This document shows, one piece after another, positions 6,656 through 64,000 of a stretch of 64,000 nt of DNA. Below the pieces are notes generated by a model. It had not been told where the DNA came from. It saw only the letters and a list, made by a program, of their open reading frames with translations, and did no database searches. A program made the position numbers and the translations under genes. The stretch is from Muribaculaceae bacterium. GTDB lineage: Bacteria > Bacteroidota > Bacteroidia > Bacteroidales > Muribaculaceae. Location of the stretch: the NCBI GenBank assembly GCA_017619935.1, contig JAFZRJ010000019.1:113719-177718 (forward strand). The letters are read 5' to 3'. Position 1 is the stretch's first letter. Every line of letters begins with the position of its first letter.

Positions 6656-8566
6656 ATGAAGAAAACTGTTACATTGATGATGCTCATGCTGGCTTTTATC
6701 ACCGCTTGGACGCAAGAACAATTACCTTCTTTCACTTCAGGAAAATTCAAGTATGAAATCGTTGACGCCACCAACAAGTGGGTGCAAATCGCTCCGAAAA
6801 GTTCCGATGCTGGCGGTTATGGCTCATTGCAGACCAGCGATTTCAAGAGCGAGGTAACCTATAATGGCGAGACCTATAAGGTCATGGGTATAGGGGCTTA
6901 TGCTTTTTACAATTGTACGTTAAGCACCGGGCGCATCATGCTGCCTGAGGGCATGGTCTATATTGACGACTTCGCTTTCGAGGGTACCGAGGTGGGTACG
7001 CTGCGACTGCCGTCCACCATCCAGTATATTTCTGATTACGCTTTCAACGGTAACAAGTTTTCCGACATCAGCGTGGTAGCCAACAACCCCTATTTCGCTC
7101 ACCTCAACTCCGACCAGGAAAGCCGAAACTTTACCGTGCTCACCAATAAGGAGCAGACAAAACTGCTGGTGTGTCCGGGAGCTAAGGCTCGCGAATACAA
7201 TTCCGATGGTTCAACCACCTACATCACCACATACACAGTTCCGGAGCAAATCACCGAGATTGGTGACTATGCCTTCTGTGATAATAAAAACCTTACCCGT
7301 GTCACGTTCCACAACGGTATCACGCGCATTGGCGATGGGGCATTTTCGGGTGCTGCGCTTACGGGCGTGAACATTCCCAATCCCGATTGTGTGTTAGGAA
7401 ACGCCTGTTTTCAGAAATGCACCTCAATGACTAGTGTACGTCTGCCGCAAGGCATGAAACGGTTGGGACGACACGTGTTTTTCTATTGCACTGGCCTGAC
7501 GAGCCTCACACTGCCTGAGGGCATGGAAGAAATCGGGATGATGTGCTTTGGCAGTTGCAACCTCAGCACCGTGAACTTGCCCAGTACCATGGTCAAGCTC
7601 GACACTTGCTCCATGCAGGACAATCCGTTCACCAGCTTTGACCTGAAAAATGTGAAATGGGTGGGCTACCAGTGCTTCAGCATGTGCAACAACCTTACTT
7701 CGCTCACTGGCAACGGCAAAGTAGAACGCATCGACGGCCTCGCCTTTGCGCGCTGTAACGGTATCACCAATCCCACGTTCCTCCCCGAAGGTGTGAAAAC
7801 GATGGAGATGAACGTCTTTTTCCGTACGCCCAATTTTGAGTCGCTCACCATTCCCAGCAGTGTAGAGTGCATGGAGGGAAGTCCCGCCTATTTGGACAAC
7901 AAATGCAAGGAATATCGTGTGGCGGAGGGCAACACCCATTTTGTGGCGCTTGACAGCTGCATCTATGCCACCAATGGCTACACCACGCTGCCCGATGGCA
8001 CGGTATGGCCCGCACTGAGCGATGCCGGCACCACCCCCACCGCGCTGGTGGGCGTGCCCACTGCTCGCGACAACAAAGTGCTCACCATCCCCGAGGGTGT
8101 GACCGTGGTCTGCAACCAGGCGGCTCGCGCCGTGCCTCTCACCGAAATTTATATGCCCAGCACCATGACCGAATTGCGCAAAATGTGCTTCACTGGCATT
8201 TCCACTGTCACCAAGGTTACTTGCATGGCTGTAAACCCGCCCGCAGTGGGCGAGAGTGCCTTCTCAGGAGATACCTATGGCAACGCCACCCTCTACGTGC
8301 CCATGCGCTCCCTTGAGGCTTACCAGAATGCCGATGGCTGGCGTCAGTTCCAGCACATCGAGGGCATTGACACAGGCGATGAACCAAGTGTGCCCGGCGA
8401 CCTCAACGGCGATGGCGCTGTGGATGTGGCCGACGTGAACATCTGCATCAACATCATTTTGGAGATTGACAATGACCCCGAAGTCAAGGCGCTTGCCGAC
8501 CTGAATGGTGACGGCACGGTGGATGTGGCCGATGTGAACGCTATCATCAACATCATTTTGCAGTAA
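6656..8566 (+). CDS. Secreted BspA-type leucine-rich-repeat protein with dockerin-like C-terminus
   Basis: A 636-residue protein with signal peptide MKKTVTLMMLMLAFITAWTQ. Residues about 70-560 are LRR_5 (BspA-like) repeats with recurring units such as IGAYAFYNC, LPSTIQYISDYAF, ITEIGDYAFCDN and RIGDGAFSG, ending in the common TLYVPMRSLEAYQ cap. The last 57 residues are a paired calcium-loop module (GDLNGDGAVDVADVN and ADLNGDGTVDVADVN, each followed by INIIL). BspA-type proteins are surface adhesins; which ligand this one binds is unknown. It is followed 93 bases later by another LRR-containing gene that ends in a T9SS tail instead. Confidence 0.9.
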   Translation: MKKTVTLMMLMLAFITAWTQEQLPSFTSGKFKYEIVDATNKWVQIAPKSSDAGGYGSLQTSDFKSEVTYNGETYKVMGIGAYAFYNCTLSTGRIMLPEGMVYIDDFAFEGTEVGTLRLPSTIQYISDYAFNGNKFSDISVVANNPYFAHLNSDQESRNFTVLTNKEQTKLLVCPGAKAREYNSDGSTTYITTYTVPEQITEIGDYAFCDNKNLTRVTFHNGITRIGDGAFSGAALTGVNIPNPDCVLGNACFQKCTSMTSVRLPQGMKRLGRHVFFYCTGLTSLTLPEGMEEIGMMCFGSCNLSTVNLPSTMVKLDTCSMQDNPFTSFDLKNVKWVGYQCFSMCNNLTSLTGNGKVERIDGLAFARCNGITNPTFLPEGVKTMEMNVFFRTPNFESLTIPSSVECMEGSPAYLDNKCKEYRVAEGNTHFVALDSCIYATNGYTTLPDGTVWPALSDAGTTPTALVGVPTARDNKVLTIPEGVTVVCNQAARAVPLTEIYMPSTMTELRKMCFTGISTVTKVTCMAVNPPAVGESAFSGDTYGNATLYVPMRSLEAYQNADGWRQFQHIEGIDTGDEPSVPGDLNGDGAVDVADVNICINIILEIDNDPEVKALADLNGDGTVDVADVNAIINIILQ

Positions 8567-8659
8567 AAGATAAACTCCGATACCTCCGAGTTCTCCGATT
8601 TTCCCGAGACAAACAAGAACAAAATAAACCCTATTATTTATTAACCAAATTCAATTTCT

Positions 8660-11092
8660 ATGAAAAAATTAACTTTACTTTTTAGTGTGCTGATGGCTTG
8701 GATTGCCTTCAGTGCGCAGGGCGATCCCGTAAAGGTGGGCAACCTCTATTACGAGATTCTTGACGCAGATGCCAAGACAGCCGAGATTGTCGCACCACCA
8801 AGTGGCACTCCTTATTCTGGCGTGCAGAATGGATGGTTTGCAAAGTCCGTGACCATTGATGGTGAAACCTATACCGTTGAAACCGTGGGCGAAGGTGCCT
8901 TTGAGGGTGCAACATTTAGCCCTTATGCCAACTCATCAGGTGTAGCCACTTTTTATATGATTGCCGTCCCGATGAAAGTGATTAAGAAAGATGCTTTCAA
9001 GGACATAACAGGACGTTCAGATGGCAATATGGGCATTCGTTTCACGACCAATGTGTGTACGGGTAACGTCACGGGGGCATCGATGTTGACCGAAGTGGAA
9101 CCCGGTGCGTTCCGTGGTGCCCACATCCGTGGTTTTGTGGCTACTGGCGGCAGTGGAGGATACAGTCACACTACAGCTTTCTCTAATGGTCCCACTGGAC
9201 TTTATAACACCAACACCAATACCATTATTAGCGCACCGGCCGATATGCGCGCCGATGCCAGCATGGGAAGCAATGGTGGCTATGGCGGCTATGCCACCTC
9301 TGTGACGTTCAACAGTGCTGCTCTGGAAGTGGCCGACTATGCTTTCTGGGGCAACACCCACATTAAGACCATGACCATGAACGAAGGCTTGACCAACATC
9401 GGCAAGCAAGCGTTCTATGGTATGACTGCATTGCAGACTCTCAACATCCCTAGCACGGTGACAACACTGGCTACCGATGCTTTCGAGGGTTGCACGGCTA
9501 TTGCAAATCTCACTTGTAACGTGGCTACTCCTCCTGCAGGCGTGGTCTTTGAGGACGCTGTTTACGAACGCATCCGCGAGAGCGGTAACATCACCGTTCC
9601 TGCTGAGAGCCTCGATGATTATCAGGCCGACCCCAACTGGGGTAAGTTCTGGGCTGTGCCCCCCACCCCCACGAAGTATGCCATCACCATCGATGAGAAT
9701 ATCCAGAACGGCACCTTGGCAGCCGACAAGACCGAGGCCGAGGAAGGCGAGACCGTGACCCTGACCGCCACCCCCTCCGAGGGCTACCAGCTCAAGACCA
9801 TCACCGTCAATGGTGTGAACACCAATGTCGTGGCACCTGTGGACGAGAACAACCAGTTCACCATGCCAGCCGACGATGTAATCGTGACCGCCGAGTTCGA
9901 GGAGATTCCTCCCACGGCGTACTCCGTCACCATTGACGACGGCATCCAAAATGGCAACGTGGAAGCCGACCTGGCTGTGGCCTATGAAGGTCAGACCGTG
10001 ACCCTGACTGCCACTCCCGCTGAGGGATATCAGCTCAAGAGCATCACCGTCACTCCCGAAACTCTTGAACTTTTGGTGGAAGTCAATGACAACTCGTTCA
10101 TCATGCCCGCCGACAACGTAATCGTGACCGCCGAGTTCGAGGAGATTCCTCCCACGAAGTATGCCATCACCATCGATGAGAATATCCAGAACGGAACCGT
10201 GACAGCCGACAAGGAAGAGGCCGAGGAAGGCGAGATTGTGACCCTGACCGTCACTCCAGCCGAGGGATACCAGCTCGAGAACATCACCGTCACTCCCGAG
10301 ACGCTCGACCTCGAAGTGATTGTGGATGAGAACTACCAGTTCACCATGCCGGCCGACAACGTGACCGTGAGCGCTACCTTCTCGTTGATTCCTCCCACGA
10401 TGTACACCATCACCATCGATGAGAATATTGAGAACGGTACCGTCACAGCCGACAAGGCCGAGGCTGAGGAAGGCGAGATTGTGACCCTGACCGTCACTCC
10501 AGCCGAGGGATACCAGCTCGAGAACATCACCGTCACTCCTGAGACGCTCGACCTCGAAGTGATTGTGGATGAGAACTACCAGTTCACCATGCCGGCCGAC
10601 AACGTGACCGTAAGCGCAACCTTCAGCGAGATTCCTCCCGTCATTGTGGAGAACGCCATCACTTTCGAAGCCGAGATTGAGCACGCCACCATCGAAGTGA
10701 GCGTGGAAGGCGAAGCCATCGAGAGCGGCGAACTCGTAGCCGAAGGAACCGAGGTGATCGTTACCGTCACACCTGAGAACGGATACAAGGTGGCCAGCGT
10801 GACCGTTGAGACCGTGGACACCGCCGAGCCCGACGGACCCGCCGGAATGCCCCGCCGTGCCGATGTGAACGTGAATGGCGAAAACAATGTCTACACCTTC
10901 GACATGCCCGGTGAGCCCATCAACATCAACGTGACCATGGAACAGGAAGTCACCACCGGCATTTATGATTTGAACGTCAATGGCAACAAGGGCGTGAAAT
11001 ATGTCAACGTCATGGGTCAGGTAAGCGACCGTCCGTTCAACGGCGTGAACATCGTCATCGACGGCGACAAGACCTACAAGGTGATCAAATAA
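8660..11092 (+). CDS. Secreted LRR / InlB-B-type repeat protein with T9SS sorting tail
   Basis: An 810-residue protein. After the signal peptide (MKKLTLLFSVLMAWIAFSAQG) residues about 25-330 are LRR_5-like (VADYAFWGN, LTNIGKQAFYGM, LNIPSTVTTLATDAFEGC). Residues about 340-730 hold five tandem repeats of about 81 residues of the divergent InlB B-repeat type, each with the pattern ITIDENIQNG, EGETVTLTATP, EGYQLK and FTMPADNV. The last 45 residues (GVKYVNVMGQVSDRPFNGVN, then VIK) form a T9SS type A sorting tail. Expected role: surface adhesin exported by T9SS. Repeats 3 and 4 are nearly identical in DNA. No dockerin is present. Confidence 0.9.
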   Translation: MKKLTLLFSVLMAWIAFSAQGDPVKVGNLYYEILDADAKTAEIVAPPSGTPYSGVQNGWFAKSVTIDGETYTVETVGEGAFEGATFSPYANSSGVATFYMIAVPMKVIKKDAFKDITGRSDGNMGIRFTTNVCTGNVTGASMLTEVEPGAFRGAHIRGFVATGGSGGYSHTTAFSNGPTGLYNTNTNTIISAPADMRADASMGSNGGYGGYATSVTFNSAALEVADYAFWGNTHIKTMTMNEGLTNIGKQAFYGMTALQTLNIPSTVTTLATDAFEGCTAIANLTCNVATPPAGVVFEDAVYERIRESGNITVPAESLDDYQADPNWGKFWAVPPTPTKYAITIDENIQNGTLAADKTEAEEGETVTLTATPSEGYQLKTITVNGVNTNVVAPVDENNQFTMPADDVIVTAEFEEIPPTAYSVTIDDGIQNGNVEADLAVAYEGQTVTLTATPAEGYQLKSITVTPETLELLVEVNDNSFIMPADNVIVTAEFEEIPPTKYAITIDENIQNGTVTADKEEAEEGEIVTLTVTPAEGYQLENITVTPETLDLEVIVDENYQFTMPADNVTVSATFSLIPPTMYTITIDENIENGTVTADKAEAEEGEIVTLTVTPAEGYQLENITVTPETLDLEVIVDENYQFTMPADNVTVSATFSEIPPVIVENAITFEAEIEHATIEVSVEGEAIESGELVAEGTEVIVTVTPENGYKVASVTVETVDTAEPDGPAGMPRRADVNVNGENNVYTFDMPGEPININVTMEQEVTTGIYDLNVNGNKGVKYVNVMGQVSDRPFNGVNIVIDGDKTYKVIK

Positions 11093-11423: not shown

Positions 11424-11867
11424 ATGAGTGTCACCATTTCATTGTTTCACATCGTTATCAACACTCTTGGACGCAAAATGACCATCCCTGACGAGACCAG
11501 CGAGCACATGTATAAATACATTGCTTCGATTGTCAAAAATAAAGGGTGCAAACTCTTCCGTATAAACGGAATAGGAAATCATATTCACATTCTTGTGGGA
11601 TTGTCTTCAAATATTGCATTGAGCGATATTGTACGCGACATCAAACAAGGGAGCAGTAAATGGGCGAAACAACAGACATATTTCCCAAACTTTAGAGGTT
11701 GGGGCAAGGAGTATGGCGCGTTTTCATGCAGTGTGCGTGACATAGAGTCCATTATTAATTACATCAACAATCAGCGCATTCATCACAGGCAGAATTCTTT
11801 CGAGCAGGAATATCAAGACATGGTTGAGCGTTCTGGGCTTGAATGGAACGACTTACGGCTCACATGA
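11424..11867 (+). CDS. REP-associated IS200-like (Y1) transposase, RAYT 1
   Basis: A 147-residue Y1-type transposase. It shows the HUH metal motif as HIHILVGL (about residue 50), the region VRDIKQGSSKWAKQQ, a WGKEYGAFSCS segment, and the catalytic-tyrosine helix IINYINNQRIHH near residue 115. Such enzymes nick single-stranded hairpin DNA. There is no tnpB next to it and no clean IS200 ends; instead it is surrounded by palindromic repeats, which is the layout of RAYT genes that act on REP sequences. It is more A+T-rich than its neighbours. Whether it moves itself is unknown. Confidence 0.88.
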   Translation: MSVTISLFHIVINTLGRKMTIPDETSEHMYKYIASIVKNKGCKLFRINGIGNHIHILVGLSSNIALSDIVRDIKQGSSKWAKQQTYFPNFRGWGKEYGAFSCSVRDIESIINYINNQRIHHRQNSFEQEYQDMVERSGLEWNDLRLT

Positions 11868-12762: not shown

Positions 12763-14589
12763 ATGAGAAAGTTATTACTTAGCGTTTTTGCTTTGGCTGT
12801 CGCCATAACAGCGGCAGCAGCTCCTCAGATGTTTGACCGCAAGGCCAGCATCAAGGCGCATGCTTTTGATGGACAGATTGAAAAATCTGCAACAGCTCGT
12901 CCATTCAAGGCTCCCGCCAAGAAAATCAGTACTTATGCTGATATTCCTGGAACGTATGTGTGCTACTATGCTAGTTACTTTGATGATTACAAATCCACTT
13001 ACTGCACGGTAACCATCGAGCAAGGTGAGACCGCCACCGACCTTATCATCAAGGGTTTGTGGGGCTCATGGACAAAGGACTTGAATGCCACGCTTGACAC
13101 TGAAAACGGAACCATTACCATTCCTCGTCAGTCACTTTATGAGTATACAGGTGATGATCCCGCTGACTTCGTTAACGTTAATGATACGGATGCAGCTGTT
13201 ACTGCCACTGTCTATTCTGATGGTATTGTCTTTGACAATCCCTGGGGTGCTTTGATTACTAGTGGCGATAGCGAAGGATACTATTATGTGATTGGCGTAG
13301 GAACCATGTTCTTGGAGCCCAATGCTAAGATGGTTGATACCAAAAATAACGAGACTTTGCTGTATATTGAACAATCTAATGACACAGTTACGATTGGTAA
13401 TTTTGGTGGCATAGGCGTTGATATTTATGCTATTTTGATGGCAGACTCCACATTTACGATTCCATCACAATTTGTGGACTCTTCAACGAATGGTGATTTC
13501 TATACCACAGATATTTCCACCTGGTACTTTGGAGAACCACAATTTGGTAATTTTGGCAGCATTGATGGAGTAGGAACAGAAACCACTCTAACATCTGATC
13601 TTGATGGCTATGGCTGGACAGCTGGAGCAACCACCGGTTATTGGTATGGCCAAATGTCCAATTTTATGATCACACGCCTTGATGAGGATGTGTTTGTTTA
13701 TCCTGTAGCTCCCGCCTTGTATCTGGCTGGCTCAATGACCAACTGGGCAACTGGCAAAGAGGCCATGACCCTGGGTGAGGATGGCAAGTTCTCCATCACT
13801 AAGGAAATGGAAGCCAACGCTGAGTTCAAGTTCATCAACGAGAACGATGAATGGATTGGCGGTGACGCAGAAGGTAATTTCATCGTTCAGAAAGAGCAAG
13901 TGGAGAACGGCACCGAGCTGACTCTGTTGGTTAACGCTGGCAACAACTTCCAGATTCCTGTGGCTGGCACTTGGACGCTCACTGTTGATCCCGAGACCAT
14001 GAAGTTGGTCATCAGCGGTGAATGGAACGAACCCGCTCCCGAACCGGTAGATGTCTATATCCTGGGTGAAGTCAACGATAATGGCTGGGGTCCCAACGTG
14101 GGTCTGCAGATGACCAAGGCTGAAGATGCCAACATCTATACCGCCGATGTCACTATCGACGGCCGCAACGATGGTTACAACTACTTCAGCTTCACCACCA
14201 AGTTGGCCGAAAACGCTGACGACTGGGGAGGCATCGCTTCTTATCGCTATGGTGCTGAGACCAACAACTTCGAGGTAACCGAGGCATTGCTGGGTACTGA
14301 CCTGACAGTGCAAGCCGGTGAAAACGCCTTCAAGATTGCTAAGGGTGACTATAGCCTGAGCCTGAACCTTGATGAGTTGAAGCTCGTTGTTACCAAGAAG
14401 GCCGCTTACAAAGAAGGCGACGTGAATGGTGACGGCAAGGTGGATGTGGCCGACGTGAACTGCGCCATCAACATTATCCTTGAAATCAAGACTCCAGAGG
14501 ATTATGTTGGCAATGCTGACCTTAATGGCGATGGCAAGGTGGATGTGTCCGACGTGAACTTGATCATCAACATCATCTTGGCAAACTAA
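12763..14589 (+). CDS. Secreted protein with SusE/F-like starch-binding modules and dockerin-like C-terminus
   Basis: A 608-residue protein with signal peptide MRKLLLSVFALAVAITAAAA. Residues about 50-305 are an unrecognised beta-rich domain (IPGTYVCYYASYFDDYKST, FLEPNAKMVDT). Residues about 313-425 (YLAGSMTNWATG) and about 428-545 (VYILGEVNDNGWGPNVG, GIASYRYGAE) resemble the repeated outer-membrane starch-binding modules of SusE/SusF. The final 57 residues are a paired calcium-loop dockerin-like module (GDVNGDGKVDVADVN, ADLNGDGKVDVSDVN). It has no lipobox, unlike true SusE/F. It stands alone with its own promoter and terminator. Glycan binding is inferred from module similarity only. Confidence 0.82.
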   Translation: MRKLLLSVFALAVAITAAAAPQMFDRKASIKAHAFDGQIEKSATARPFKAPAKKISTYADIPGTYVCYYASYFDDYKSTYCTVTIEQGETATDLIIKGLWGSWTKDLNATLDTENGTITIPRQSLYEYTGDDPADFVNVNDTDAAVTATVYSDGIVFDNPWGALITSGDSEGYYYVIGVGTMFLEPNAKMVDTKNNETLLYIEQSNDTVTIGNFGGIGVDIYAILMADSTFTIPSQFVDSSTNGDFYTTDISTWYFGEPQFGNFGSIDGVGTETTLTSDLDGYGWTAGATTGYWYGQMSNFMITRLDEDVFVYPVAPALYLAGSMTNWATGKEAMTLGEDGKFSITKEMEANAEFKFINENDEWIGGDAEGNFIVQKEQVENGTELTLLVNAGNNFQIPVAGTWTLTVDPETMKLVISGEWNEPAPEPVDVYILGEVNDNGWGPNVGLQMTKAEDANIYTADVTIDGRNDGYNYFSFTTKLAENADDWGGIASYRYGAETNNFEVTEALLGTDLTVQAGENAFKIAKGDYSLSLNLDELKLVVTKKAAYKEGDVNGDGKVDVADVNCAINIILEIKTPEDYVGNADLNGDGKVDVSDVNLIINIILAN

Positions 14590-14735: not shown

Positions 14736-14975
14736 TTCACCCCGGGCTAGTTTGTATCGTGCTTTCAGCACTCCATTCCCGCCTTTGTTTCACCCCGGGC
14801 TAGTTTGTATCGTGCTTTCAGCACTCCATTCCCGCCTTTGTTTCACCCCGGCCTAATTTGTGTCGTGCTTTCAGCACTTCATTTTCGCTGTCGCTTCACC
14901 CTGGGCTAATTTGTATCGTGCTTTCAGCACTCCATTCCCGCTGTCGCTTCACCCAAAGCTGGATTGTGCCGTGCT
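14736..14975. repeat. Tandem array of 53-base REP-like units
   Basis: The anchor TTCACCC recurs at 14736, 14789, 14842, 14895 and 14948, an exact 53-base period. Each of the four full units carries the hairpin GTGCTTTCAGCAC (14759, 14812, 14865, 14918) and most carry CACCCCGG followed by CTAGTTTGT or CTAATTTGT. The fifth unit is degenerate. The array ends about 65 bases before the RAYT 2 start codon. Confidence 0.92.
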
Positions 14976-15039
14976 CTTGCATTGCATAACGTCAATTATT
15001 GGCATTCCAAATTTTTTGATTACTTTTGCAAAAAAACTT

Positions 15040-15495
15040 ATGGCAAGCAGTCTGACAAAGAACTATATTCACATAATTTTTCACAAGCATTCTCATAGTT
15101 CGGATATTCAATCTGGAGATTTAGACCAAGTGTTTGCATATATCAGTGGAATCATTTGGAATCTTAAAGGTACACCAGTTATTGTGGGTGGTGTGCATGA
15201 CCATATACACATTCTTACTACTTTGCCGAAAAACGTCAGTTTGGCTGATTTCGTAAGAACCATTAAGGCAGAGTCAAGCAAATGGATAAAAAGTCAAAGT
15301 TCATTTTATAAAGAGTTCGCTTGGCAGAATGGTTATGGAGCGTTTTCGGTAAGTGCATCTCAGTTAGACATCACCAAACAATATATCAAGACTCAAGCTG
15401 AGCATCATAGGGGGAAAACATTTATAGATGAATACAAAGCATTTCTTGAAGCGTATGATGTTGATTACGATGAAAGATATGCATTTGGCGATTAG
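15040..15495 (+). CDS. REP-associated IS200-like (Y1) transposase, RAYT 2
   Basis: The 151-residue product is read from the ATG at 15040 (MASSLTKNYIHIIFHKHSH). An in-frame upstream extension lies inside the tandem repeats and before the likely promoter, so it is rejected. The HUH motif is HDHIHILTTL (about residue 50), then VRTIKAESSKWIKSQ, WQNGYGAFSVS, and the tyrosine helix ITKQYIKTQAEHH. It shares this order with RAYT 1 but is only distantly similar to it. It is A+T-rich relative to its neighbours and has no tnpB partner. Repeats lie on both sides in opposite orientations. Confidence 0.87.
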   Translation: MASSLTKNYIHIIFHKHSHSSDIQSGDLDQVFAYISGIIWNLKGTPVIVGGVHDHIHILTTLPKNVSLADFVRTIKAESSKWIKSQSSFYKEFAWQNGYGAFSVSASQLDITKQYIKTQAEHHRGKTFIDEYKAFLEAYDVDYDERYAFGD

Positions 15496-25754: not shown

Positions 25755-25782
25755 GATGTGTAACCGACAAAAGCAAACGACC

Positions 25783-30160: not shown

Positions 30161-30173
30161 TGTCGTTAAGGGG

Positions 30174-32297: not shown

Positions 32298-32355
32298 TTT
32301 AGATATGTTTTTAGTTGTTATATTCTCAAAATTGCATACTAAGGCATTGAACAAG

Positions 32356-45518: not shown

Positions 45519-45544
45519 AGTCGTCGGGTTTTAGCGATGAATAT

Positions 45545-55900: not shown

Positions 55901-56245
55901 GCACACACCACGAGTGGTGTTGAACATCTCGCCCAAATAGATGGGGAAGAATTCTGGAATGCTGGTGTTCAACACATAGATGCCGGCATGGTAATAGTCG
56001 CTCCACACATTGGAGTAGGTGCGAGTGCCATAAATCAGGCCTGAAGGTGTCACTGAAGACACACGTCGGGCACTGAGTTTGCCGGTAGGCAACGACACCC
56101 CGTCAATCGTGCGTCGGTCCATATCCACAGCTACCGACGATGCCATGCCTGGCTTGTCGGGAGCTGTCACGGTGCCCTTGAGCATTTGTGCTTGCAACAC
56201 TGTCGTGACGCATAGCAAAGTAATAAGCATCAATTCTTTTTTCAT
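52961..56245 (-). CDS. Secreted multidomain surface protein with dockerin-like C-terminus (tandem paralogue 2)
   Basis: The ATG at 56245 (MKKELMLITLLCVTTVLQAQ) gives 1094 residues; the 15-residue upstream extension runs through a terminator hairpin and is rejected. The domain order is that of the paralogue at 49612: propeller-like region (YDRYTGIIYGNF, MVIDKQHHMWGINRKTG), Fn3 pair, jelly-roll (LPYSNHFETEDRAKELTYIN, WEQMQGVVPETDDW), Fn3 region, second jelly-roll (MGKPYQLPFYETTTTG, KIHISGDNPKLTFDYAVLQG), and dockerin-like pair (GDVDGDGKVDVTDVN, ADLDGDGKVDVSDVN). Over long stretches it is close to identical to paralogue 1 (VPAPATVTLAKSGNNFRVTW), suggesting recent duplication or gene conversion. 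Confidence 0.85.
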   Translation of the reverse strand: MKKELMLITLLCVTTVLQAQMLKGTVTAPDKPGMASSVAVDMDRRTIDGVSLPTGKLSARRVSSVTPSGLIYGTRTYSNVWSDYYHAGIYVLNTSIPEFFPIYLGEMFNTTRGVCYIDGRLWLSHVERGLSFGDDNSIVSSPRVQHYLFNIMTGELEMYINPGYPSSSGWSMVYDRYTGIIYGNFSNNNLNKDIFGTLDLTTGRTTGIAEMDVSLTGMVIDKQHHMWGINRKTGILYEVNMTDGTLREVGNTGVTSAYANSGCLDPITGVYYYNTCNMYESSLYAIDTETATATHIYTFPNNDEWGAMWMLPRLSDAVPAAPKNVQATFDGLEGFVSFTMPNTLANGQMEMGKATYTVYVDGVATATGEAMYGSKVNVDLTMEHGGQVVVAVALSNDQGESDVVRQTATVGDAAVPAPATVTLAKSGNNFRVTWDAVDVSGVTYSVTRYPDAVDVATGLTTTTFTEPIPNGGRTNYFYSVTAYLGNAQSKPTRSNYLAAGQFTLPYSNHFETEDRAKELTYINANNDTYEWTYAVNCNLRGEHGIYVPKNNRELTFWEQMQGVVPETDDWAITPGLMLEGGKSYTVTYRVFSMYEYSNYTERYEVKMGTSPTVAAMTTQIKGPTIVLTGNYAPREDCTVFTAPADGVYYIGLHGISQGGFWFGCLGIDVSEGYNPNAPYFPMELTVNPDPDGELQASVVLRTSGWNTQRKALDGYDRIELLANDQLVYTWQNPPLRETCTATIELPRDGSYTIEAVPYGLTGGRGIPLKTTAYIGVRPPADVTGVTIDPTNTPGEVTMTWNPVTTNIDGATIDGSKVTYNVYNADEQLMGEELTATQHTFQAMDYDHDPQQFLRFYVTSHFNTFYSAWAGYTPYLLMGKPYQLPFYETTTTGDTRYAWLNSGTVSWDLAASSEDLASSDNDGTFLVMIGSEADQSGTYTSGKIHISGDNPKLTFDYAVLQGCNNTLVAKVICDGVTTTLGSHSMNGSSSDYVWNSVEYDLSAYAGKDIQLEFTGTVVTHVAVAIDNIKVTSTPTGIVGDVDGDGKVDVTDVNAAINIILELKTQDDYQGNADLDGDGKVDVSDVNQIINIILTQ

Positions 56246-56261
56246 AAGAATGTCCCTGTTA

Positions 56262-56289
56262 TGCGAGGGGCGGGTAACCACCCCTCGCA
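56262..56289 (-). terminator. Terminator between tandem paralogues 3 and 2
   Basis: TGCGAGGGG (56262-56270) and CCCCTCGCA (56281-56289) form a 9-bp perfect stem around a 10-base interior. It lies 8 bases beyond the stop of paralogue 3. No T-run follows. Confidence 0.6.
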
Positions 56290-56297
56290 ATTATTAG

Positions 56298-59200
56298 TTA
56301 TTGAGTTAATATCAAGTTAATGATTTGATTCACATCGCTTACATCCACCTTCCCATCACCGCTAAGGTCGGCATTTCCTTGATAGTCATCTTGTGTCTTG
56401 AGTTCAAGGATGATGTTGATGGCGGCGTTCACGTCGGCCACATCCACGATGCCGTCGCCATTGATGTCGCCTGGCTTCAAGAGTTCGGGCGTACTGGTGA
56501 TTTTGACACCGTCAACAAAGATGCTGACATGGGTCCACAGCGTGCCCAACAACTGCACCTGGATGATTTTGTCCTTGTATTCGTCAAGATTGAACCGCAC
56601 GGTTTGCCATTTCCAGTCGCTAGTGCCGTTTTCAAACATCGGTATGGTGCGTAGCGTCTTGCCGATGCCGTCGCAAATCACGTTCACCGAGAGCAGGTTA
56701 CTGTCGTTCTGGAGTGACATATAACTCACTTCAAGTTCTATGTCTCGCCCCGAGAGTTGGATTTTTCCGGATGTCAAATATCCTTGGTCCTCTTGATACT
56801 CGCCTTTCATCCAGAAGAACGAGCCGTCGCCGTCCACCGATTTGATGTCCGAAGCATCGGGATAAAGTTGCCATAGCGCATCGCCACCGGTAATCCAGAA
56901 ATACTTGAGCGAACTGCCGTCGCTGGTCTCATAGAAGGGAAGTTCGTAGGGACATCCCACCATGATATAGGGCGTGTAGGCGGTGGCGTAGGTATATCGA
57001 GTGCCGTAACGTGCTCCCACATAGTAACGCACCATGGTTTGCGGAGCATTGGCATCGGTGACACGGAAAGTGTAGGTGGTGTCGCCGGGAACTTCATGGA
57101 GCATATTGCCATCCACATCATAAATCTGATAATAGACCTGAGACGGGTCAATCGGACTCTCGTCGGTGGCTGTGCGTACGGCGGACCAGGTGAGGGTCAC
57201 CTCTCCGGGACTGCTCTCCACGATGTTTGCCGAAGCCACATCACTCGGGGCCTTTGCGCCCACAAATGCCGAAACTTTGCCGGCAGTGCCGTGATCGGTG
57301 GCGGTGTGGTAGGCGACCGCTTCAAATTCATAGGTTCCCAGTCGCTCCACGGGAACCTGTGTCGTTAGCTTGGCGCCAAGAGACGGATTTTGCCAAGTGT
57401 GCAGTACCTTTTCGTCAACTACCAAGTCAATGTGGTCGATGGCGCTCAGTGTGCCGCCGTTCATCGTTTTGGTGGGGGCTGTGACTTCGACAGTAGCCTC
57501 CAATGCGCCACCCTCGTCAGGAGTGACAGCGATTTCGGGAGCCGCCGGGGCATTGGGGAAGTACCCCTCCGAAACATGGATTTCATAGACGCAAAGCCAG
57601 AAGCCACCCGCCGACATACAGTGCAAACCGATGTAGTAGGTGCCATCAGCATTGACGGTAAATGTCTGGGAGTAGTCTTGGCGATACACCGGAAGAACCG
57701 ATCCTGGGACGATACTGCGTGGGATGATGGTGGTGGTGAGCGCACCCACTGTGGGTGCGGTACCCATTTTCACCTCATAAACCTCATCGTTACCCTTGGT
57801 CGACATGTTGTAGGTGACGGTATAAATCTTTCCTTTTTCAAGTTGCAGCCCTGGAGTCACCGCCCAGTCGTCGGTTTCGGGTTCCACACCCTGCATTTGC
57901 TCCCAGAAGGTGAGTTCGCGGGCATTGTAGGGCATGTAGATGCCGTGGGTGCCACGGTAGTCAAGGCTGGTGGCAAAGAGCCACACATAGTCGTCGTTGT
58001 TGGCGTTGATATAGGTCAGTTCATCGACACGGTCGCGGTTCTCAAAACAGTTGTCATAGGGCACCGGTAATGTTGCCGAACCGATGGTTCCGGTGAAAGC
58101 CTCTTCGGTCAGGCGACCGTCGACATGAGCACGTACGCCATAATAATGCGACCCTGCAGGCGGTACCTCGCGATAATATCCGGTGGTGAGGCCTGTCGCC
58201 ACAACGGTGGCTTCGGGATAACGGGTCACGTCGTAAGTCACATTTTCACCGGGATAAGCATCCCAATAGATGCGCACGGCACCAGTGTCGGTGAACGTGC
58301 GTGTATAGATGCCGGTGGGTGCGGGCAGGTTCTCACCGCCCACCTGAATGGGGTCGGTGAGTGCCACGGCACTTTCACCTTGGTTATTGGTCAGCGCCAC
58401 AGCGAAGACGGTTTTGCCGTTTGACGGCACGGTGACCGTTTCGGTAATTGTGGCACCGTATGATACTTCTCGTTGCGAGACAGCCACGCCGTTCACATAG
58501 ACCGTAGCGGTGGCATGTCCAGAGCCCATCGTGCCATTGGCAAGAAGTGTCGGAACCTTATAGGAGATGGTTCCTTCCATCGCTTCGCCTTCGAAAGTGG
58601 CGGTGAGATTCTGCGGTCTGGAGGGCACTGCGTTGCTCAAGGCGGTGGGCATCCACATATAGACGTATTCATCGTTGCACGGGAACTCCTTCACCAGCGT
58701 GGCTTGCGCGGTGGCGAGGTCGATGGTGTAGAGTGCCGAATTATTGCGGTTGCACACCGTATAATAATAGGTGTCGGTCAGCGGGTCGATGCAACCACTG
58801 TTGATATAATCCGACTTCAGTCCGGTTTTTCCAATCATTGTAAGACCTCCAGTGGCCATGTTCACCTCATAGAGGATGCCAGTGCGGCTGTTGGTGGCCC
58901 ACATCCTGTGGTTGCTGTCAATAGCCATTCCAGTGAGGCCAAAAGGCAGATTGCCAAGTGCGGTACGAACACCGGTTACGGGGTCGACAGTTCCGAACAC
59001 GTAACCCATGTTGTCATCGCTTGTAAACGAGCCGTAGATGGTGCCGGAGTAGCGGTCATATACCATCGAGGAGGAAGTGGAAGTCATATAGCCAGGGTCA
59101 ATGCTGCGAATGAGTTGGCCGGTAGCGAAGTCAATGACATAGTGATAGATATGTTTGGGGGCCAAGATAGCGGCTTGATAGACATAGGAAATCCATAATT

Positions 59201-59582
59201 GTCCGTCAAAGTAGCACATTCCTCTTGAGCCGTTGAGGGCGTCGCCTAACAAGACAGGCTGACAAACCTCACCGTCGGTAGTCAAGGCATAGATGCCGTT
59301 GCGTGTGTAGTCGCTCCAGGTGCTCATATAGGTCTTGTTGGCAAAGATATAACCTGCCGAAGCCTGTTCGAGTAAGGGTGCGGCGTGGCGCTGCGACTTG
59401 GCGTTGCGGTCGATTCTGATGAGTGAAGAGCCGTCGACGGTACGGGTCCCTTCTACATTAAGTAACATTTCGGCCGATGGCAAGCCCGATGTGGCTTTCC
59501 CTTCGGTCGATAAGTATTGTGCCGTTGCTGCTGTGGTCGATAATGCGACCAATGTAGCCCACAATAGTAATCTTTGGTTCAT
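56298..59582 (-). CDS. Secreted multidomain surface protein with dockerin-like C-terminus (tandem paralogue 3)
   Basis: A 1094-residue protein with signal peptide MNQRLLLWATLVALSTTAATAQ. It has the same domain order as the two downstream genes but is clearly more diverged: propeller-like region (YDRYSGTIYGSFTSDDNMGY, MAIDSNHRMWATNSRTGILY), Fn3 domains (LPAPTGIYTRTFTDTGAVRI), jelly-roll (VPYDNCFENRDRVDELTYIN, WEQMQGVEPETDDW), Fn3, second jelly-roll (LPFYETSDGSSLKYFWITGG, KIQLSGRDIELEVSYMSLQN) and dockerin-like pair (GDINGDGIVDVADVN, ADLSGDGKVDVSDVN). The identical length despite divergence suggests strong constraint on the whole fold. Confidence 0.85.
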   Translation of the reverse strand: MNQRLLLWATLVALSTTAATAQYLSTEGKATSGLPSAEMLLNVEGTRTVDGSSLIRIDRNAKSQRHAAPLLEQASAGYIFANKTYMSTWSDYTRNGIYALTTDGEVCQPVLLGDALNGSRGMCYFDGQLWISYVYQAAILAPKHIYHYVIDFATGQLIRSIDPGYMTSTSSSMVYDRYSGTIYGSFTSDDNMGYVFGTVDPVTGVRTALGNLPFGLTGMAIDSNHRMWATNSRTGILYEVNMATGGLTMIGKTGLKSDYINSGCIDPLTDTYYYTVCNRNNSALYTIDLATAQATLVKEFPCNDEYVYMWMPTALSNAVPSRPQNLTATFEGEAMEGTISYKVPTLLANGTMGSGHATATVYVNGVAVSQREVSYGATITETVTVPSNGKTVFAVALTNNQGESAVALTDPIQVGGENLPAPTGIYTRTFTDTGAVRIYWDAYPGENVTYDVTRYPEATVVATGLTTGYYREVPPAGSHYYGVRAHVDGRLTEEAFTGTIGSATLPVPYDNCFENRDRVDELTYINANNDDYVWLFATSLDYRGTHGIYMPYNARELTFWEQMQGVEPETDDWAVTPGLQLEKGKIYTVTYNMSTKGNDEVYEVKMGTAPTVGALTTTIIPRSIVPGSVLPVYRQDYSQTFTVNADGTYYIGLHCMSAGGFWLCVYEIHVSEGYFPNAPAAPEIAVTPDEGGALEATVEVTAPTKTMNGGTLSAIDHIDLVVDEKVLHTWQNPSLGAKLTTQVPVERLGTYEFEAVAYHTATDHGTAGKVSAFVGAKAPSDVASANIVESSPGEVTLTWSAVRTATDESPIDPSQVYYQIYDVDGNMLHEVPGDTTYTFRVTDANAPQTMVRYYVGARYGTRYTYATAYTPYIMVGCPYELPFYETSDGSSLKYFWITGGDALWQLYPDASDIKSVDGDGSFFWMKGEYQEDQGYLTSGKIQLSGRDIELEVSYMSLQNDSNLLSVNVICDGIGKTLRTIPMFENGTSDWKWQTVRFNLDEYKDKIIQVQLLGTLWTHVSIFVDGVKITSTPELLKPGDINGDGIVDVADVNAAINIILELKTQDDYQGNADLSGDGKVDVSDVNQIINLILTQ

Positions 59583-59660: not shown

Positions 59661-62600
59661 TTATTTTACAATCTTAGTGGTGGTGACAGTGCCGTCGGCA
59701 TTGCGTGTGACAACGATGTTCACACCATTGAACGGACGGTTGCTCACTTGACCCATCACATTGATATACTTCACACCAGTAACACTGCCGGCAACATTGA
59801 TGTCGTTCACACCAGTGGTGATGTCGCCACTGCTGGTGATGTTGCTCAACGGCGTGATGGTGTAGTTAGTCGAACTGTTCATGTCGCTCTTCTTCACGCG
59901 GCGAGGAGCACCTGCAGGAGCCTCATCCTCAGCTTCCCAAGCCTCTTTGAGCTTGATGATACCATTGAATGAGATACTCATGTTGATGTAGTTGTCAAGA
60001 GCGCCTTCGCCCATAAAGGTGTTGTCGATGGCGATTCTCTGTCCGGGATCCTCCAGGTTGCTGAATGCACGCAGGTAACCGTCAGCACCATAGAAGCCAG
60101 CGATCTGTGCGAGGCAGTTGCCAGGCAGGTCAATGAACGTGGCGGTGTGCAGGTTGAGTGTTTCCAGAATGGGTTCGTCGGTGCTTTCTCCAGCTTCGGG
60201 AGTCTTGGTGAGAGCGATGACGGGGTTGGTGTCGAGATTGGTGATGGTACCTTGCAGGGTTCCGGCCTTGACACTATTGGCACCCACTCCGAGGGCTTCT
60301 TTCGCCTCGTTATCGAAGTTGGTAGCTACCCAGTTGCCGTTGTTGTCGGTAAGGATAGCGGTGCCGTCGGTCTCAACAGCGGCAATGAAGAGTTCGTCGC
60401 TGATGCGTACCTCAGTGCCTTCTTCGCTGGCAAGAGCCTCACTCAGCGTGCTGGCAGGAATAGGTTGTTCTCCTATCTCCTCGATGGTGCCGAAGCGCCA
60501 GTAGTAGATGTTATTACTTACCTTATTGTAATAAGTGTCTATGCAGCCTTCGGGCACATAGAGCTTAGCCGTGCTGATGAAACCAGCAAATGGTGCAAAG
60601 TTTGCAACAGAGCCATCCCAAACGGGAGGAGTGGTGGCATAGCAAGTAACATCCTCAACAGTGGTGACATCTTTGGTCATGTTGTTGCCAATTTCTCTTA
60701 CACCTTCGCCAAGAATCAGGTGCTTCAATGCGGTACAACCCGACAACAGCGACTGTTGTAACATAGCCACATTGGGGATGGTGATGGTCTCAGCGCTCAA
60801 ACGAGCCAAAGTGAAGGCTTCGAGAGTTGTCACGGTAGAAGGAATCGTCAACTCGCTGATGGCCGACATACCACGCACGCCATAAGGAGCGATGGACAGC
60901 AGACCCTCCTGGAGGGTGAGCTTGGTCACCTCGGTGTTCTCAGAGAATGCACGGTTACCGATTTGAACCACTTGATAGGTGCGATTCTTGTGGGTAACGG
61001 TCAATGGGATGGTGATTTCTCCGCTGTAGCATTCAGGCTCATTGCCAGTACCGCCGCCAGAGTTGGTCACCTCTACGGTGAGGTTGTCATGGCTGAGCAC
61101 GTTGTAGTAGAGACCATCCTCATAGAAGAATTCGTCACCCTTAATATTAGCGGTGACGGTGACATCTGCGCTAAGGTCATTAGGAGTGGTGGCGGTGATG
61201 ACCACGGTGAAAGGTTGCTCTTCATCGTTGGTGAGCGGTGCCACGCGGGTCACCAATCCGTTCTGGTCAACGGTAGCGATGGTTTCGTCGGCGCTGCTCC
61301 AGGTCACAGTGCGCTCGGTGGTGGTCTCCGGGTCGAAGACTACCGTCAATTGCACGGTGGCACCATTCTCAGCGGCCAGCACGGGATTTTCAGGACTGAT
61401 GCTGATGGCAGTGGGCAGCACGGTCTCGAGCACCTTAACGGTGACGGTGACTGTCTGCGATACGCCATTGGCAGCAGTAGCGGTGATGTCGACGGTGTAA
61501 GGAGCATCGTTTTCGTTGAAGAGACCAGCCACGCGGGTCACCAAACCATTGGCATCAACGGTGGCGATGGTCTCGTCGGCACTCGACCAAGTCACCGTCT
61601 TGATGGTGGCAGTCTCGGGCAGCACGGTGGCGGTCAGTTGCACGGTGGCACCTTCCTCAGCGGCAAGTTCAGGATTCTCTGGTTCAATCGTCACAGCGGT
61701 GGGTTGAACAGTTTCCAGCACTTGGGCTGTCACGGTGACGGTGTTGGTCAAGCCGTTGGCTGTGGTTGCAGTGATGTCAACCGTGTAAGGTTGGTCATCA
61801 CCACTGTAGAGTCCAGCCACGCGGGTCACCAAACCATTGGCATCAACGGTGGCGATGGTCTCGTCGGCACTCGACCAAGTCACGCTCTTGTCGGTAGCAC
61901 TTTCAGGCAATACGGTAGCGGTCAGTTGCACGGTAGCACCTTCGGTAGCTGTCAGCACAGGATTTGCCGGCTCGATGGTAACGCTTTCGGGTACCACGGT
62001 TTCCAGCACGTTAACGGTCACAGTGACAGTTGCGGAAACACCTCCTACAGCAGTGGCTGTGATATCAACGGTATAAGGCTGGTTGTCGCTACTATACAAG
62101 GTTGCAGTGCGGGTCACCAAACCATTGTCGTTAACAGTAGCGATGGTAGCATCGCTGGTGGTCCAGGCGACGGTCTGGTAAGTGGCGTCGGTAGGCAAAA
62201 TGGCCGCGGCGAGTTGCACAGTGGCCCCTTCCTCAGCTGCCAGCACGGGATTCTCGGGAGTGATGGTCACCGACTCTACTTCAATTTCATCGCCGCCACC
62301 TGCAGGCACTTCGACATAGGCCGAGAAGCGGTCATATAGTTTGGTGCTGCTTGCATTGTTGGCACCTTGAGCCGATTTGGCCTTGTAAGTGTCAACAGAC
62401 CCTTCTGGTACATAGAGCGTGGATGCGCTCTGAATGCCATTGGGGAATGGCTTACATTGATGTGCATAGGTGTTGATGGTACCTGTGTGGTTATAGCCTG
62501 GAGGTGTTGAGGTCTGAATCCTCACCGTCCGCAAAGCCGTACAACCGTTGGTCATCAACGCACCCAACCATTGAACACCTTCACCCAAAACGAGTTCGGT

Positions 62601-63008
62601 TAGTGAAGTGCAATTAGTCATTGCGTAATCCGGCAGAGTCGTCACATTGGGAATTTCCAGATAAGTGAGAGCCGTCATTCCCGACAGACATTCATTGTGC
62701 ACGAGCGTGGTCACCGTACTGGGCAGCGTGAGGCTGGTCACCTCGGTGTTGGCACGGAAGGCTCGGTTGGCCACCTGAACCACACTATAGGTCACACCGT
62801 CGTGGGCGACGGAGGATGGAATGACCACAACGCCTGAATAGCAGGTGGGGTCATTCGATGTACCACCGTTGGAGTTGGTTACCTCCACGGTACTCCCACT
62901 TAGGATGTTGTAGTAGATGCCATCTTCTTGAAAATCTTGCGCCCATCCAGCGAAGGCTCCAAGCAGACAGAACACTGCAGCAAGCATCAATTTGTAGGTT
63001 TTATTCAT
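59661..63008 (-). CDS. Large secreted LRR / Ig-like (Big_2) surface protein with T9SS sorting tail
   Basis: A 1115-residue protein with signal peptide MNKTYKLMLAAVFCLLGAFAGWAQ. An LRR_5 region (about 25-235; VANRAFRANTEVTSLTLP) is followed by four bacterial Ig-like group 2 repeats of about 95 residues (about 248-640; EEGATVQLTATVLPETAT, TWSSADETIATVDANGLVTR), then a second LRR_5 region that repeats the design of the first (about 645-880; IGNRAFSENTEVTKLTLQ). A further beta domain (about 890-1030) precedes the last 40-odd residues (GVKYINVMGQVSNRPFNGVN, then TKIVK), a T9SS type A tail. It is probably a long surface adhesin. It follows the partial gene at the right edge. Confidence 0.88.
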   Translation of the reverse strand: MNKTYKLMLAAVFCLLGAFAGWAQDFQEDGIYYNILSGSTVEVTNSNGGTSNDPTCYSGVVVIPSSVAHDGVTYSVVQVANRAFRANTEVTSLTLPSTVTTLVHNECLSGMTALTYLEIPNVTTLPDYAMTNCTSLTELVLGEGVQWLGALMTNGCTALRTVRIQTSTPPGYNHTGTINTYAHQCKPFPNGIQSASTLYVPEGSVDTYKAKSAQGANNASSTKLYDRFSAYVEVPAGGGDEIEVESVTITPENPVLAAEEGATVQLAAAILPTDATYQTVAWTTSDATIATVNDNGLVTRTATLYSSDNQPYTVDITATAVGGVSATVTVTVNVLETVVPESVTIEPANPVLTATEGATVQLTATVLPESATDKSVTWSSADETIATVDANGLVTRVAGLYSGDDQPYTVDITATTANGLTNTVTVTAQVLETVQPTAVTIEPENPELAAEEGATVQLTATVLPETATIKTVTWSSADETIATVDANGLVTRVAGLFNENDAPYTVDITATAANGVSQTVTVTVKVLETVLPTAISISPENPVLAAENGATVQLTVVFDPETTTERTVTWSSADETIATVDQNGLVTRVAPLTNDEEQPFTVVITATTPNDLSADVTVTANIKGDEFFYEDGLYYNVLSHDNLTVEVTNSGGGTGNEPECYSGEITIPLTVTHKNRTYQVVQIGNRAFSENTEVTKLTLQEGLLSIAPYGVRGMSAISELTIPSTVTTLEAFTLARLSAETITIPNVAMLQQSLLSGCTALKHLILGEGVREIGNNMTKDVTTVEDVTCYATTPPVWDGSVANFAPFAGFISTAKLYVPEGCIDTYYNKVSNNIYYWRFGTIEEIGEQPIPASTLSEALASEEGTEVRISDELFIAAVETDGTAILTDNNGNWVATNFDNEAKEALGVGANSVKAGTLQGTITNLDTNPVIALTKTPEAGESTDEPILETLNLHTATFIDLPGNCLAQIAGFYGADGYLRAFSNLEDPGQRIAIDNTFMGEGALDNYINMSISFNGIIKLKEAWEAEDEAPAGAPRRVKKSDMNSSTNYTITPLSNITSSGDITTGVNDINVAGSVTGVKYINVMGQVSNRPFNGVNIVVTRNADGTVTTTKIVK

Positions 63009-63169: not shown

Positions 63170-63230
63170 TAATTTTTCCAAAAAAAGAAAACTTTTTACC
63201 AATTGGTTTTTCTCGCCAAAACCACGTAAC

Positions 63231-63357
63231 ATCCCCCTCTAAACTAGAGGGGGTGCCGCGAAGCGGCGGGGGCGTGTGTCCAACAGGAGTCGTATTGACG
63301 GCGTCATCACACACTCCTCTGGTTCTGCGAACCACATCCCCTAACTAGGGGGAGGAT
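63231..63357. repeat. 127-base element of two inverted double-hairpin arms (REP/MITE-like)
   Basis: The left arm holds hairpins CCCCCTCTA-AAC-TAGAGGGGG (63233-63253) and GCCGC-GAA-GCGGC (63255-63267), then GTGTGT. The right arm, read in reverse complement, repeats the plan with different bases: CCCCTA-GT-TAGGGG (63351-63338), GGTTC-GCA-GAACC (63333-63321), then GTGTGT. Both ends read ATCC inward. Confidence 0.75.
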
Positions 63358-63400
63358 CTGATTGACAGTACTTTATTTTCATCGAACTGACGATTATTTA

Positions 63401-63429
63401 AGAAAGCCGAGGGATTCCCCCGGCTTTCT
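63401..63429 (-). terminator. Terminator of the right-edge gene
   Basis: AGAAAGCCGAGGG (63401-63413) and CCCCCGGCTTTCT (63417-63429) pair with one mismatch over a 3-base loop, 14 bases beyond the stop codon at 63443. Confidence 0.75.
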
Positions 63430-63442
63430 CAAAAAACCAATA

Positions 63443-64000
63443 TTATTTCACCATCTTGGTGACAGTTCCGTCGGCATTCACCACGATGTTGATACCGTTG
63501 AACGGACGGTCGCTGACACGGCCATTCATGTCGATGTAGCGGACGTTGCCATTGGCATCGCTGCGCACGTCAGTGATGGCGGTCACCACACCGTTGCCGC
63601 GTACAATGCTCAGTCGCATCGGCGCACCGGCGGGATTGGTCACGGGCAGATAACAGCGGTGGGCTGCCAAAGTGCCGGCCTTGATAAGTACGAAGGCATC
63701 GTTGTAGAGCACATATCCGTCGGTGATTTCCATGTCCTCCACACTGCCCTGCAGCATGCTGGTCACGGTGGCGGTCTCTCCGGTGTAAGGCACCGTGCTT
63801 ACGGCCTCGGCGCTAGTGGTGCTGTAGAGCAGCACACCCACGTTAGCGGGGATGTAGTCAACAGCCTCAATCTGTGTCTTGTCTCCGTTGACGGCGGTCA
63901 CCACGTATGCGGTCACGCCCTCGGGCAGAGCCAGGTCGGCGTTGCCGAACCAAGTGGCGTAAGCGTTTCCGTCGAAGACGACACCGTCAAGCACGACAGG
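63443..64000 (-). CDS. C-terminal part of a T9SS-sorted surface protein (5' end cut by window edge)
   Basis: About 185 C-terminal residues; the frame is open to position 64000, so the start is outside the window. The visible part has a beta-rich domain (AYATWFGNADLALPEGVTAY, VGVLLYSTTSAEA, GYVLYNDAFVLIKAGTLAAH, RCYLPV) of a kind often found near the end of BspA-type proteins, then a T9SS type A tail (NVRYIDMNGRVSDRPFNGIN, then TKMVK) nearly identical in plan to those of the genes at 8660, 28061 and 59661. What the N-terminal part is cannot be told. Confidence 0.8.
   Translation of the reverse strand, partial: PVVLDGVVFDGNAYATWFGNADLALPEGVTAYVVTAVNGDKTQIEAVDYIPANVGVLLYSTTSAEAVSTVPYTGETATVTSMLQGSVEDMEITDGYVLYNDAFVLIKAGTLAAHRCYLPVTNPAGAPMRLSIVRGNGVVTAITDVRSDANGNVRYIDMNGRVSDRPFNGINIVVNADGTVTKMVK

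Follow-up and report, generated by a model that had tools for sequence, protein, structure and literature searches.

A candidate cellulosome-like docking system of type I dockerins and divergent cohesin-like domains in a Muribaculaceae bacterium

The 64-kb stretch of DNA analysed here (positions 113719-177718 of contig C24, in the following termed the window) belongs to the genome of a rumen-type gut bacterium of the Muribaculaceae, which has 1.86 Mb and is distributed over 38 contigs and estimated to be 66% complete. Eleven secreted proteins encoded in the window end in a 57-residue pair of EF-hand-like calcium loops and four others in a motif resembling the tails of the type IX secretion system (T9SS), which raises the question of what the calcium-loop module serves and what receives it. 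The original prediction proposed a second surface-sorting or docking signal, recognised by the T9SS itself or by an unidentified receptor. The present analysis points to a type I dockerin and to a divergent family of cohesin-like domains as putative receptors: judged from sequence, the dockerin proteins probably plug into cohesin-like domains of T9SS-surfaced anchors, directly or via scaffoldins or adaptors, in a cellulosome-like manner.

Dockerins of the window and the genome

All eleven predicted C-terminal pairs match PF00404 (24.8-42.3 bits, cut-off 22.9), and with two calcium-binding repeats scoring above cut-off the module is assigned to the type I dockerins. The predicted coordinates of the tagged genes agree with open reading frames (ORFs), except that the start at 25783 is an internal ATG of the ORF 25735-26628. 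The genome-wide profile search suggested at the time yielded, at E<=0.001, at least 122 PF00404 matches in at least 118 distinct frames (counted by contig, strand and frame length), 11 of the matches inside the window; 150 of 195 candidates were scored, making 122 a lower bound, and 2 of 14 control genomes also match. Of 107 distinct dockerin proteins read from the source genome, six with a cut 3' end were dropped. In the remaining 101, the distance from the end of the dockerin to the C-terminus is at most 5 residues in 91 and at most 15 in 93; the dockerin is internal or N-terminal in 8, and a signal peptide, called by a crude criterion, is present in 96. In L007:5195-7285, PF00404 detects an internal dockerin that a home-made dockerin profile overlooked. 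At the end of contig C22, a 202-aa secreted ORF (L009:13767-14375) contains repeated dockerin-like loops with four overlapping PF00404 matches. The module is common to the genus, with at least 29-89 matches per genome in 37 of 37 genomes when scoring was limited to 87 candidates; this genus set lies within 61 genomes searched, the other 24 being from other families.

Among the Pfam families listed for the 101 proteins at E<=1e-5 (25 of 32 families per half of the set), LRR_5 (leucine-rich repeats, LRR) is found 26 times, FGE-sulfatase and peptidase M6 6 times each, alpha-amylase and CotH 3 times each, peptidase C10 and GHL10 twice each, and GH53, GH16 and peptidase S8 once each (GH, glycoside hydrolase). 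Dockerins are thus borne by enzymes of families GH13, GH53 and GH16 and by peptidases C10, M6 and S8. The families listed for this set include no cellulase and a single carbohydrate-binding match (Cthe_2159), and no carbohydrate-binding module (CBM) is listed at E<=0.01 on the scaffoldins described below, which is why the proposed complex is called cellulosome-like. In six proteins (L075, L076, L085, L092, L014) a dockerin is followed by an FGE-sulfatase (SUMF1-like) domain.

The near-invariant helix after each loop had been taken as fitting one shared partner, and the 101 dockerins accord with this: N14 is present in 100 first and 97 second loops, N18 in 98 of either, and I17, I20 and L21 are likewise near invariant in both. 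In ten other genomes of the genus the calcium residues are kept, N14 is replaced by T or S, and positions 9-11 and 16-21 differ; N18 is kept in most sampled genomes, with D in G006 and G017. The signatures fall into groups (G001, G010, G011 and G029 alike; G002 with G031; G024 mixed). Mean dockerin identity across 11 genus genomes is 0.68 within (0.54-0.87) versus 0.49 between genomes, and 0 of 500 label shuffles gave a difference as large, in a test of 71 sequences (12 of the 101 from the source genome, those of relatives from the best-scoring list) that is uncorrected for shared ancestry. Such likeness within genomes is as a shared, co-evolving receptor predicts.

A divergent cohesin-like family and its carriers

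No cohesin had been recognised in the window, and indeed neither PF00963 nor the profile A1, built from 35 cohesin-like domains, detects one there, but cohesin-like domains occur elsewhere in the genome. The lead was a single PF00963 match at E<=10, a threshold at which E. coli and M. acetivorans also match. The corresponding sequence, comprising a dockerin half, the cohesin-like domain and a tail, reached as a single query 36 of 37 genus genomes and 2 of 24 genomes of other families, with tandem copies. With A1, all 37 genus genomes were detected with 1-16 copies each (4 in the source genome), as were G039 (24 copies) and G057 (3 copies) outside the genus and none of the 22 remaining genomes. 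A divergent family of cohesin-like domains, as defined by these profiles, is hence distributed throughout the genus.

Its relation to cohesins is indicated by several comparisons. When the 35 members of A1 were scanned singly at E<=1, 13 matched PF00963 (best 2.5e-8), and no other listed family matched more than two. The three best matches of A1 in the PDB are fragments of cellulosomal scaffoldins (E 0.0023, 0.017 and 0.018). In G039, from another family, a five-domain protein exceeds the cut-offs of PF00963 (58.8 bits), PF18962 (Por_Secre_tail) and TIGR04183 together; a single query from the domain of the source genome, made without A1, reaches this protein with E 1.1e-10 and the adjacent eight-domain protein with E 2.1e-12.

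The carriers in relatives include scaffoldins that combine a C-terminal dockerin with six cohesin-like domains in tandem (L072 has four); the arrays of G039 hold 8 and 5 domains. A search with three scaffoldins (L045-L047) returned 12 loci, ten at 64-100% identity, three of them on the contigs of the queries, and two at 33%. The records are titled uncultured Muribaculaceae, Prevotellaceae or Bacteroidales, and some originate from red deer, water buffalo omasum or goat reticulum. A dockerin-cohesin-tail protein (574-581 aa) directly adjoins the scaffoldin in all ten strong loci. Among 76 distinct cohesin-bearing ORFs of relative loci, all selected for the presence of cohesin-like domains, 18 end in a dockerin, 53 in a tail (51 with an internal dockerin) and 5 in neither; the tail label is partly by construction, as one of the three profiles used derives from the C-terminal ends of L016-L041 ORFs 600-740 aa long, a set that largely coincides with the ORFs labelled. 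Relatives also have small cohesin-dockerin proteins (213-237 aa), which resemble adaptor scaffoldins. The LRR-dockerin-cohesin-tail gene is adjoined by trmB in 23 of 27 relative loci (26 of 30 as given, three of them repeats of others) and likewise in the source genome. The internal dockerin of anchors (L045:6427-8154 and kin) differs from the signature of the dockerins sampled in the same genomes.

Candidate surface anchors, in which cohesin frames carry above-cut-off TIGR04183 tails, were found in G039 and in two further genomes of other families, G307 (a single frame of 2681 aa with cohesins and tail) and G084 (cohesin and tail in two frames), the cohesin and tail frames of the latter two having been matched by eye. 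In the genus itself the TIGR04183 tails of cohesin proteins are weak (E 0.0027-0.065).

Dockerins and cohesin-like domains also co-occur across the order. In an even draw of 295 genomes (A1 and PF00404 both at E<=1e-4), 25 are A1-positive, 81 PF00404-positive and 23 both (overlap counted by hand), i.e., dockerins are present in 23 of 25 A1-positive genomes versus 58 of 270 others (Fisher p 1.8e-12, treating genomes as independent though they are related and some contributed to A1). The two A1-positive genomes without dockerin, G082 and G114, are the two weakest A1 genomes. Presence of the T9SS was discarded as a test of anchoring, since GldM is found in 269 of the 295 genomes, including 24 of the 25 A1-positive ones (hand count; not G307).

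Two nearly exclusive tags and the genes of the window

The tails of the four window proteins, predicted as T9SS tails, share a common C-terminal motif but match neither PF18962 nor TIGR04183 (E<=0.1; TIGR04183 also genome-wide at E<=1); the T9SS label of these proteins reflects motif resemblance, not curated models. Aligning a profile of these tails with one of TIGR04183-type tails neither established nor excluded a likeness, and the cohesin profile does not match the window tails. A profile of the window-type tail, built from the four window proteins and seven tails of relatives and hence partly from its own targets, has 24 matches in the genome, namely the four window proteins and 20 further places. 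TIGR04183 yields 14 matches in the genome at E<=1, where 13 of 14 controls match as well; 7 exceed the cut-off, which one of the controls also exceeds, and none corresponds to the window's four proteins.

The original prediction stated that no protein bears both tags, which is true of the window and, genome-wide, of all 24 window-type tails. Of the 118 dockerin frames, just 2 also contain a TIGR04183 match, C30:39141 (E 0.025) and C30:41157 (E 0.065). They are neighbours with the common order LRR, dockerin, cohesin-like domain and tail, and directly upstream lies a third gene, whose 166-aa product comprises a signal peptide and a single cohesin-like domain. The sole exceptions found thus carry the receptor-like domain, and the many double-tagged proteins that were to contradict the prediction do not appear in this genome. 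A comparison by eye in G039, covering about 47 of 77 rows, revealed no listed dockerin frame, out of 21, whose contig and length coincide with those of a listed TIGR04183 match; one frame there combines an internal dockerin with a tail (L048:1-4293).

The features of the window are as follows.

2-6405, minus strand: T9SS core genes porN, porM, porL, porK, porP and porT (TIGR/NF profiles)
6656-8566, plus strand: LRR_5 protein, C-terminal dockerin pair at residues 580-635 (PF00404 40.6 bits)
8660-11092, plus strand: InlB-repeat/LRR protein, T9SS-like C-terminal motif (motif and window-type tail profile, built partly from it; no TIGR04183/PF18962 match)
12763-14589, plus strand: secreted protein, C-terminal dockerin pair (PF00404 42.3 bits)
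15673-17193, minus strand: LRR_5 protein, C-terminal dockerin pair (PF00404 24.8 bits)
25735-26628, plus strand: Y_Y_Y-domain protein (PF07495 27.0 bits, cut-off 26.6), C-terminal dockerin pair (PF00404 33.3 bits)
26717-28042, minus strand: GH53 enzyme (PF07745 E 4.4e-73), C-terminal dockerin pair (PF00404 28.1 bits)
28061-30205, minus strand: alpha-amylase (GH13; PF00128), T9SS-like C-terminal motif; paralogue of 30174-32354
30174-32354, minus strand: alpha-amylase (GH13; PF00128), C-terminal dockerin pair (PF00404 39.7 bits); weak CBM26 match below cut-off
32601-33935, minus strand: SusF/CBM20-like starch-binding protein (PF17142, PF00686), C-terminal dockerin pair (PF00404 36.6 bits)
44853-45518, minus strand: small secreted protein, C-terminal dockerin pair (PF00404 33.9 bits)
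49612-52896, minus strand: large secreted protein, C-terminal dockerin pair (PF00404 35.6 bits)
52961-56290, minus strand: large secreted protein, C-terminal dockerin pair (PF00404 35.9 bits); MAM match below cut-off
56298-59582, minus strand: large secreted protein, C-terminal dockerin pair (PF00404 34.6 bits)
59661-63008, minus strand: Big_2/LRR protein, T9SS-like C-terminal motif (window-type tail profile, built partly from it)
63443-64000, minus strand: protein truncated by the contig end, C-terminal part with T9SS-like motif (motif and window-type tail profile)

The tandem amylases are 50% identical over 670 columns, and the alignment stops before the tags: one paralogue bears the T9SS-like tail, the other the dockerin, and the dockerin-tagged SusF-like protein adjoins them. 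Such an exchange of tags suggests a common destination compartment for both. Overall, the window resembles a region for starch use and adhesion. The T9SS core genes match TIGR03517, TIGR03513, TIGR03525, TIGR03519 and NF052311 above cut-off; porN, truncated by the window edge, reaches 82.7 bits with TIGR03523 (cut-off 85.9). Elsewhere in the genome, L009:1582-13418 (contig C22) harbours three PorU-type T9SS sortase genes (963, 728 and 703 bits, cut-off 420), with two ORFs between the first two; one PorU copy is typical. Two TIGR04183-tailed proteins on contigs C31 and C18 (L008:2127-3134 and L012) are 99% alike, perhaps as a result of recent duplication. Within the window, a gene pair for an untagged secreted protein and a small dockerin protein is present in two copies about 20 kb apart (24711-26628 and 44853-46534, by eye), and two small proteins (11424-11867 and 14860-15495) are, by their motif, presumably related to IS200-type transposases.

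Docking, rival readings and known systems

In the proposed docking scheme, the type I dockerin would link more than 100 enzymes and binding proteins, all exported by Sec, to cohesin-like domains carried by three types of protein: T9SS-tailed anchors, small cohesin-dockerin adaptors and, in some species, six-cohesin scaffoldins, which end in a dockerin and could themselves plug into an anchor. The tail would then mark anchors and independently exported proteins, the dockerin the passengers, and the outcome would be a multi-enzyme complex on the cell surface, similar to a cellulosome or amylosome and fixed to the outer membrane via the T9SS. The shared partner and the distributed surface complex of the original prediction fit this scheme, while its unidentified receptor or new sorting signal becomes unnecessary. 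Cohesin-bearing scaffoldins elsewhere, which were to refute the original prediction, have turned up in the form of cohesin-like proteins of the source genome, tandem arrays of relatives and cohesins joined to curated tails in other families.

Several observations weigh against docking, among them the distant relation of the receptor to known cohesins. The PF00963 match of the source genome (19.1 bits) stays below the cut-off of 24.1. A1 finds PDB cohesins weakly, its fourth match being a NagJ fragment (0.069), which we take to be a cohesin, followed by unrelated designed proteins, and single cohesin-like domains retrieve no cohesin from the PDB. No PF00963 match at E<=0.01 is present in the six-domain scaffoldins, the two-domain L050 or the eight-domain protein of G039. 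In L092, a divergent domain of the source genome (A1 E 2e-6) is pAdhesive_11 by Pfam (26.6 bits, cut-off 24.3); this region precedes the dockerin and FGE-sulfatase domains mentioned above. Further points concern numbers and partners. Few cohesin-like domains (four by A1) face at least 118 dockerin frames in the 66% complete genome, which yielded no six-domain scaffoldin. The internal dockerin of the anchors has no clear partner and may pair within its chain or with another cohesin type. Within the order sample, 8 of 17 genomes with at least 5 dockerin matches have no A1 match (G088, G130, G131, G143, G152, G155, G232 and G282); their dockerin matches, where listed, mostly begin at profile position 8 or later, and these dockerins may be another class.

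The sub-threshold PF00963 scores in the genus and the pAdhesive_11 match would also suit generic Ig-like adhesion or carbohydrate-binding modules that do not bind dockerins, the dockerins then being calcium-stabilised C-terminal caps or intrachain binders. The InlB repeats, Big_2 domains and LRRs of the same proteins look adhesive, and in the 51 of 76 relative ORFs which unite cohesin, internal dockerin and tail in one chain an intramolecular pairing is possible. Yet this explanation appears very unlikely: PF00963 is matched by 13 of 35 members and no other listed family by more than two, the top three PDB matches are scaffoldin fragments, the dockerin-ended tandem arrays have the layout of scaffoldins, and even unrelated proteins have nearly the same dockerin helix residues beyond the calcium loop.

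The route across the outer membrane is a further difficulty for docking. Apart from a Sec-type signal, the passengers show neither a recognised tail nor a clear lipobox and lack a known route through the outer membrane, and the tails of the genome's own anchors match TIGR04183 weakly (E 0.025 and 0.065), at a level common to 13 of 14 controls. Lipoproteins were considered and rejected, a lipobox-like pattern being found in just 2 of 101 dockerin proteins, both doubtful. Together with the Sec signal in 96 of 101 and the absence of a detected tail from 116 of 118 frames, this implies that some export information is missing. It could reside in the dockerin pair itself, which the T9SS or some other machinery would read as a signal for sorting or for export across the outer membrane, with the cohesin-like domains being incidental; the 116 tail-less frames, the extreme C-terminal position in 91 of 101 proteins and the amylase tag swap are in line with this. 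Such a signal is nevertheless rated as quite unlikely, considering the joint occurrence of cohesin-like domains and dockerins in 37 of 37 genus genomes and their co-occurrence in the order, the 8 of 101 dockerins in internal or N-terminal position, and a signature that varies between species of one genus, unlike a signal for a conserved secretion core. With somewhat more probability, if still doubtfully, tail-less dockerin proteins might associate in the periplasm with the cohesin of a T9SS-tailed anchor and cross the T9SS together with it, the pair forming an export and docking code; some other route may serve as well.

Docking also has to account for the likeness of dockerins within a genome, which duplication alone could produce. 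Codon diversity at the invariant dockerin residues (0.97 bits) lies below the genome level (1.32 bits), as would be expected of a recently amplified C-terminal cassette without a common partner, alike within genomes by duplication only. The codons are diverse all the same (GAC 69 and GAT 31 in one Asp column, six codons for Leu), the same residues are kept in both loops, and the carriers have unrelated domains, rendering such a cassette extremely improbable. Duplication within genomes contributes to the likeness, and codon diversity was set aside as a test of old versus recent spread because of its intermediate outcome.

To our knowledge, Bacteroidota are usually described as users of polysaccharide utilization loci without cellulosomes. 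Ruminococcus cellulosomes and the R. bromii amylosome comprise many dockerin proteins, dockerin-bearing and adaptor scaffoldins and starch complexes, in Gram-positive hosts with other anchoring. The present system differs from these in its Gram-negative host, its T9SS-type tails and the outer membrane to be crossed. No description of a cohesin-dockerin-T9SS system in Bacteroidales was found in the literature searched, outside of which lie most subscription papers and bioRxiv preprints.

In Ca. Stygibacter (Cloacimonadota; PMC8542988), C-terminal dockerins occur on signal-peptide enzymes (GH18, GH57, peptidases S8 and C25), and a tandem-cohesin scaffoldin-like protein has a conserved C-terminal surface-attachment domain, for which a T9SS review is cited. 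That system belongs to another phylum and has one scaffoldin-like protein of 3,755 aa with CBM2/CBM3, in contrast to the at least 118 dockerin frames, divergent cohesins, dockerin-ended scaffoldins, separate tailed anchors and small adaptors described here. Similarly, the camel rumen Bacteroidetes Bin136 has 5 dockerins and a tandem-cohesin gene with 2-4 cohesins (the range for six bins), the passages giving counts without architecture or T9SS link (PMC6071333). By these two precedents, the Bacteroidales system varies a known theme and is not of a new kind. Other sources add LRR_5-dockerin_I proteins of Ruminococcus ERACg_42 (PMC7480376) and, by its title, T9SS-linked polysaccharide enzymes of the rumen Bacteroidetes Ca. 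Paraporphyromonas polyenzymogenes (PMC5831590). Dockerins without cohesins have also been recorded: 11 dockerins and 0 cohesins in each of the Bacteroidetes Bin49 and Bin58 (PMC6071333), and 9 metagenome-assembled genomes (MAGs) with dockerins and no cohesin by PF00963 in cattle (PMC9763041). A later camel rumen study reports cohesin proteins in Firmicutes_A bins only (PMC9177762).

The standard cohesin model nearly overlooks the receptors proposed here, so that dockerin-rich Bacteroidota MAGs seemed to possess docking modules without a dock; a divergent cohesin-like family would explain them. The system further offers new candidate cohesin-dockerin pairs with species-dependent signatures, and it raises the question of how a Gram-negative cell moves more than 100 dockerin proteins across its outer membrane.

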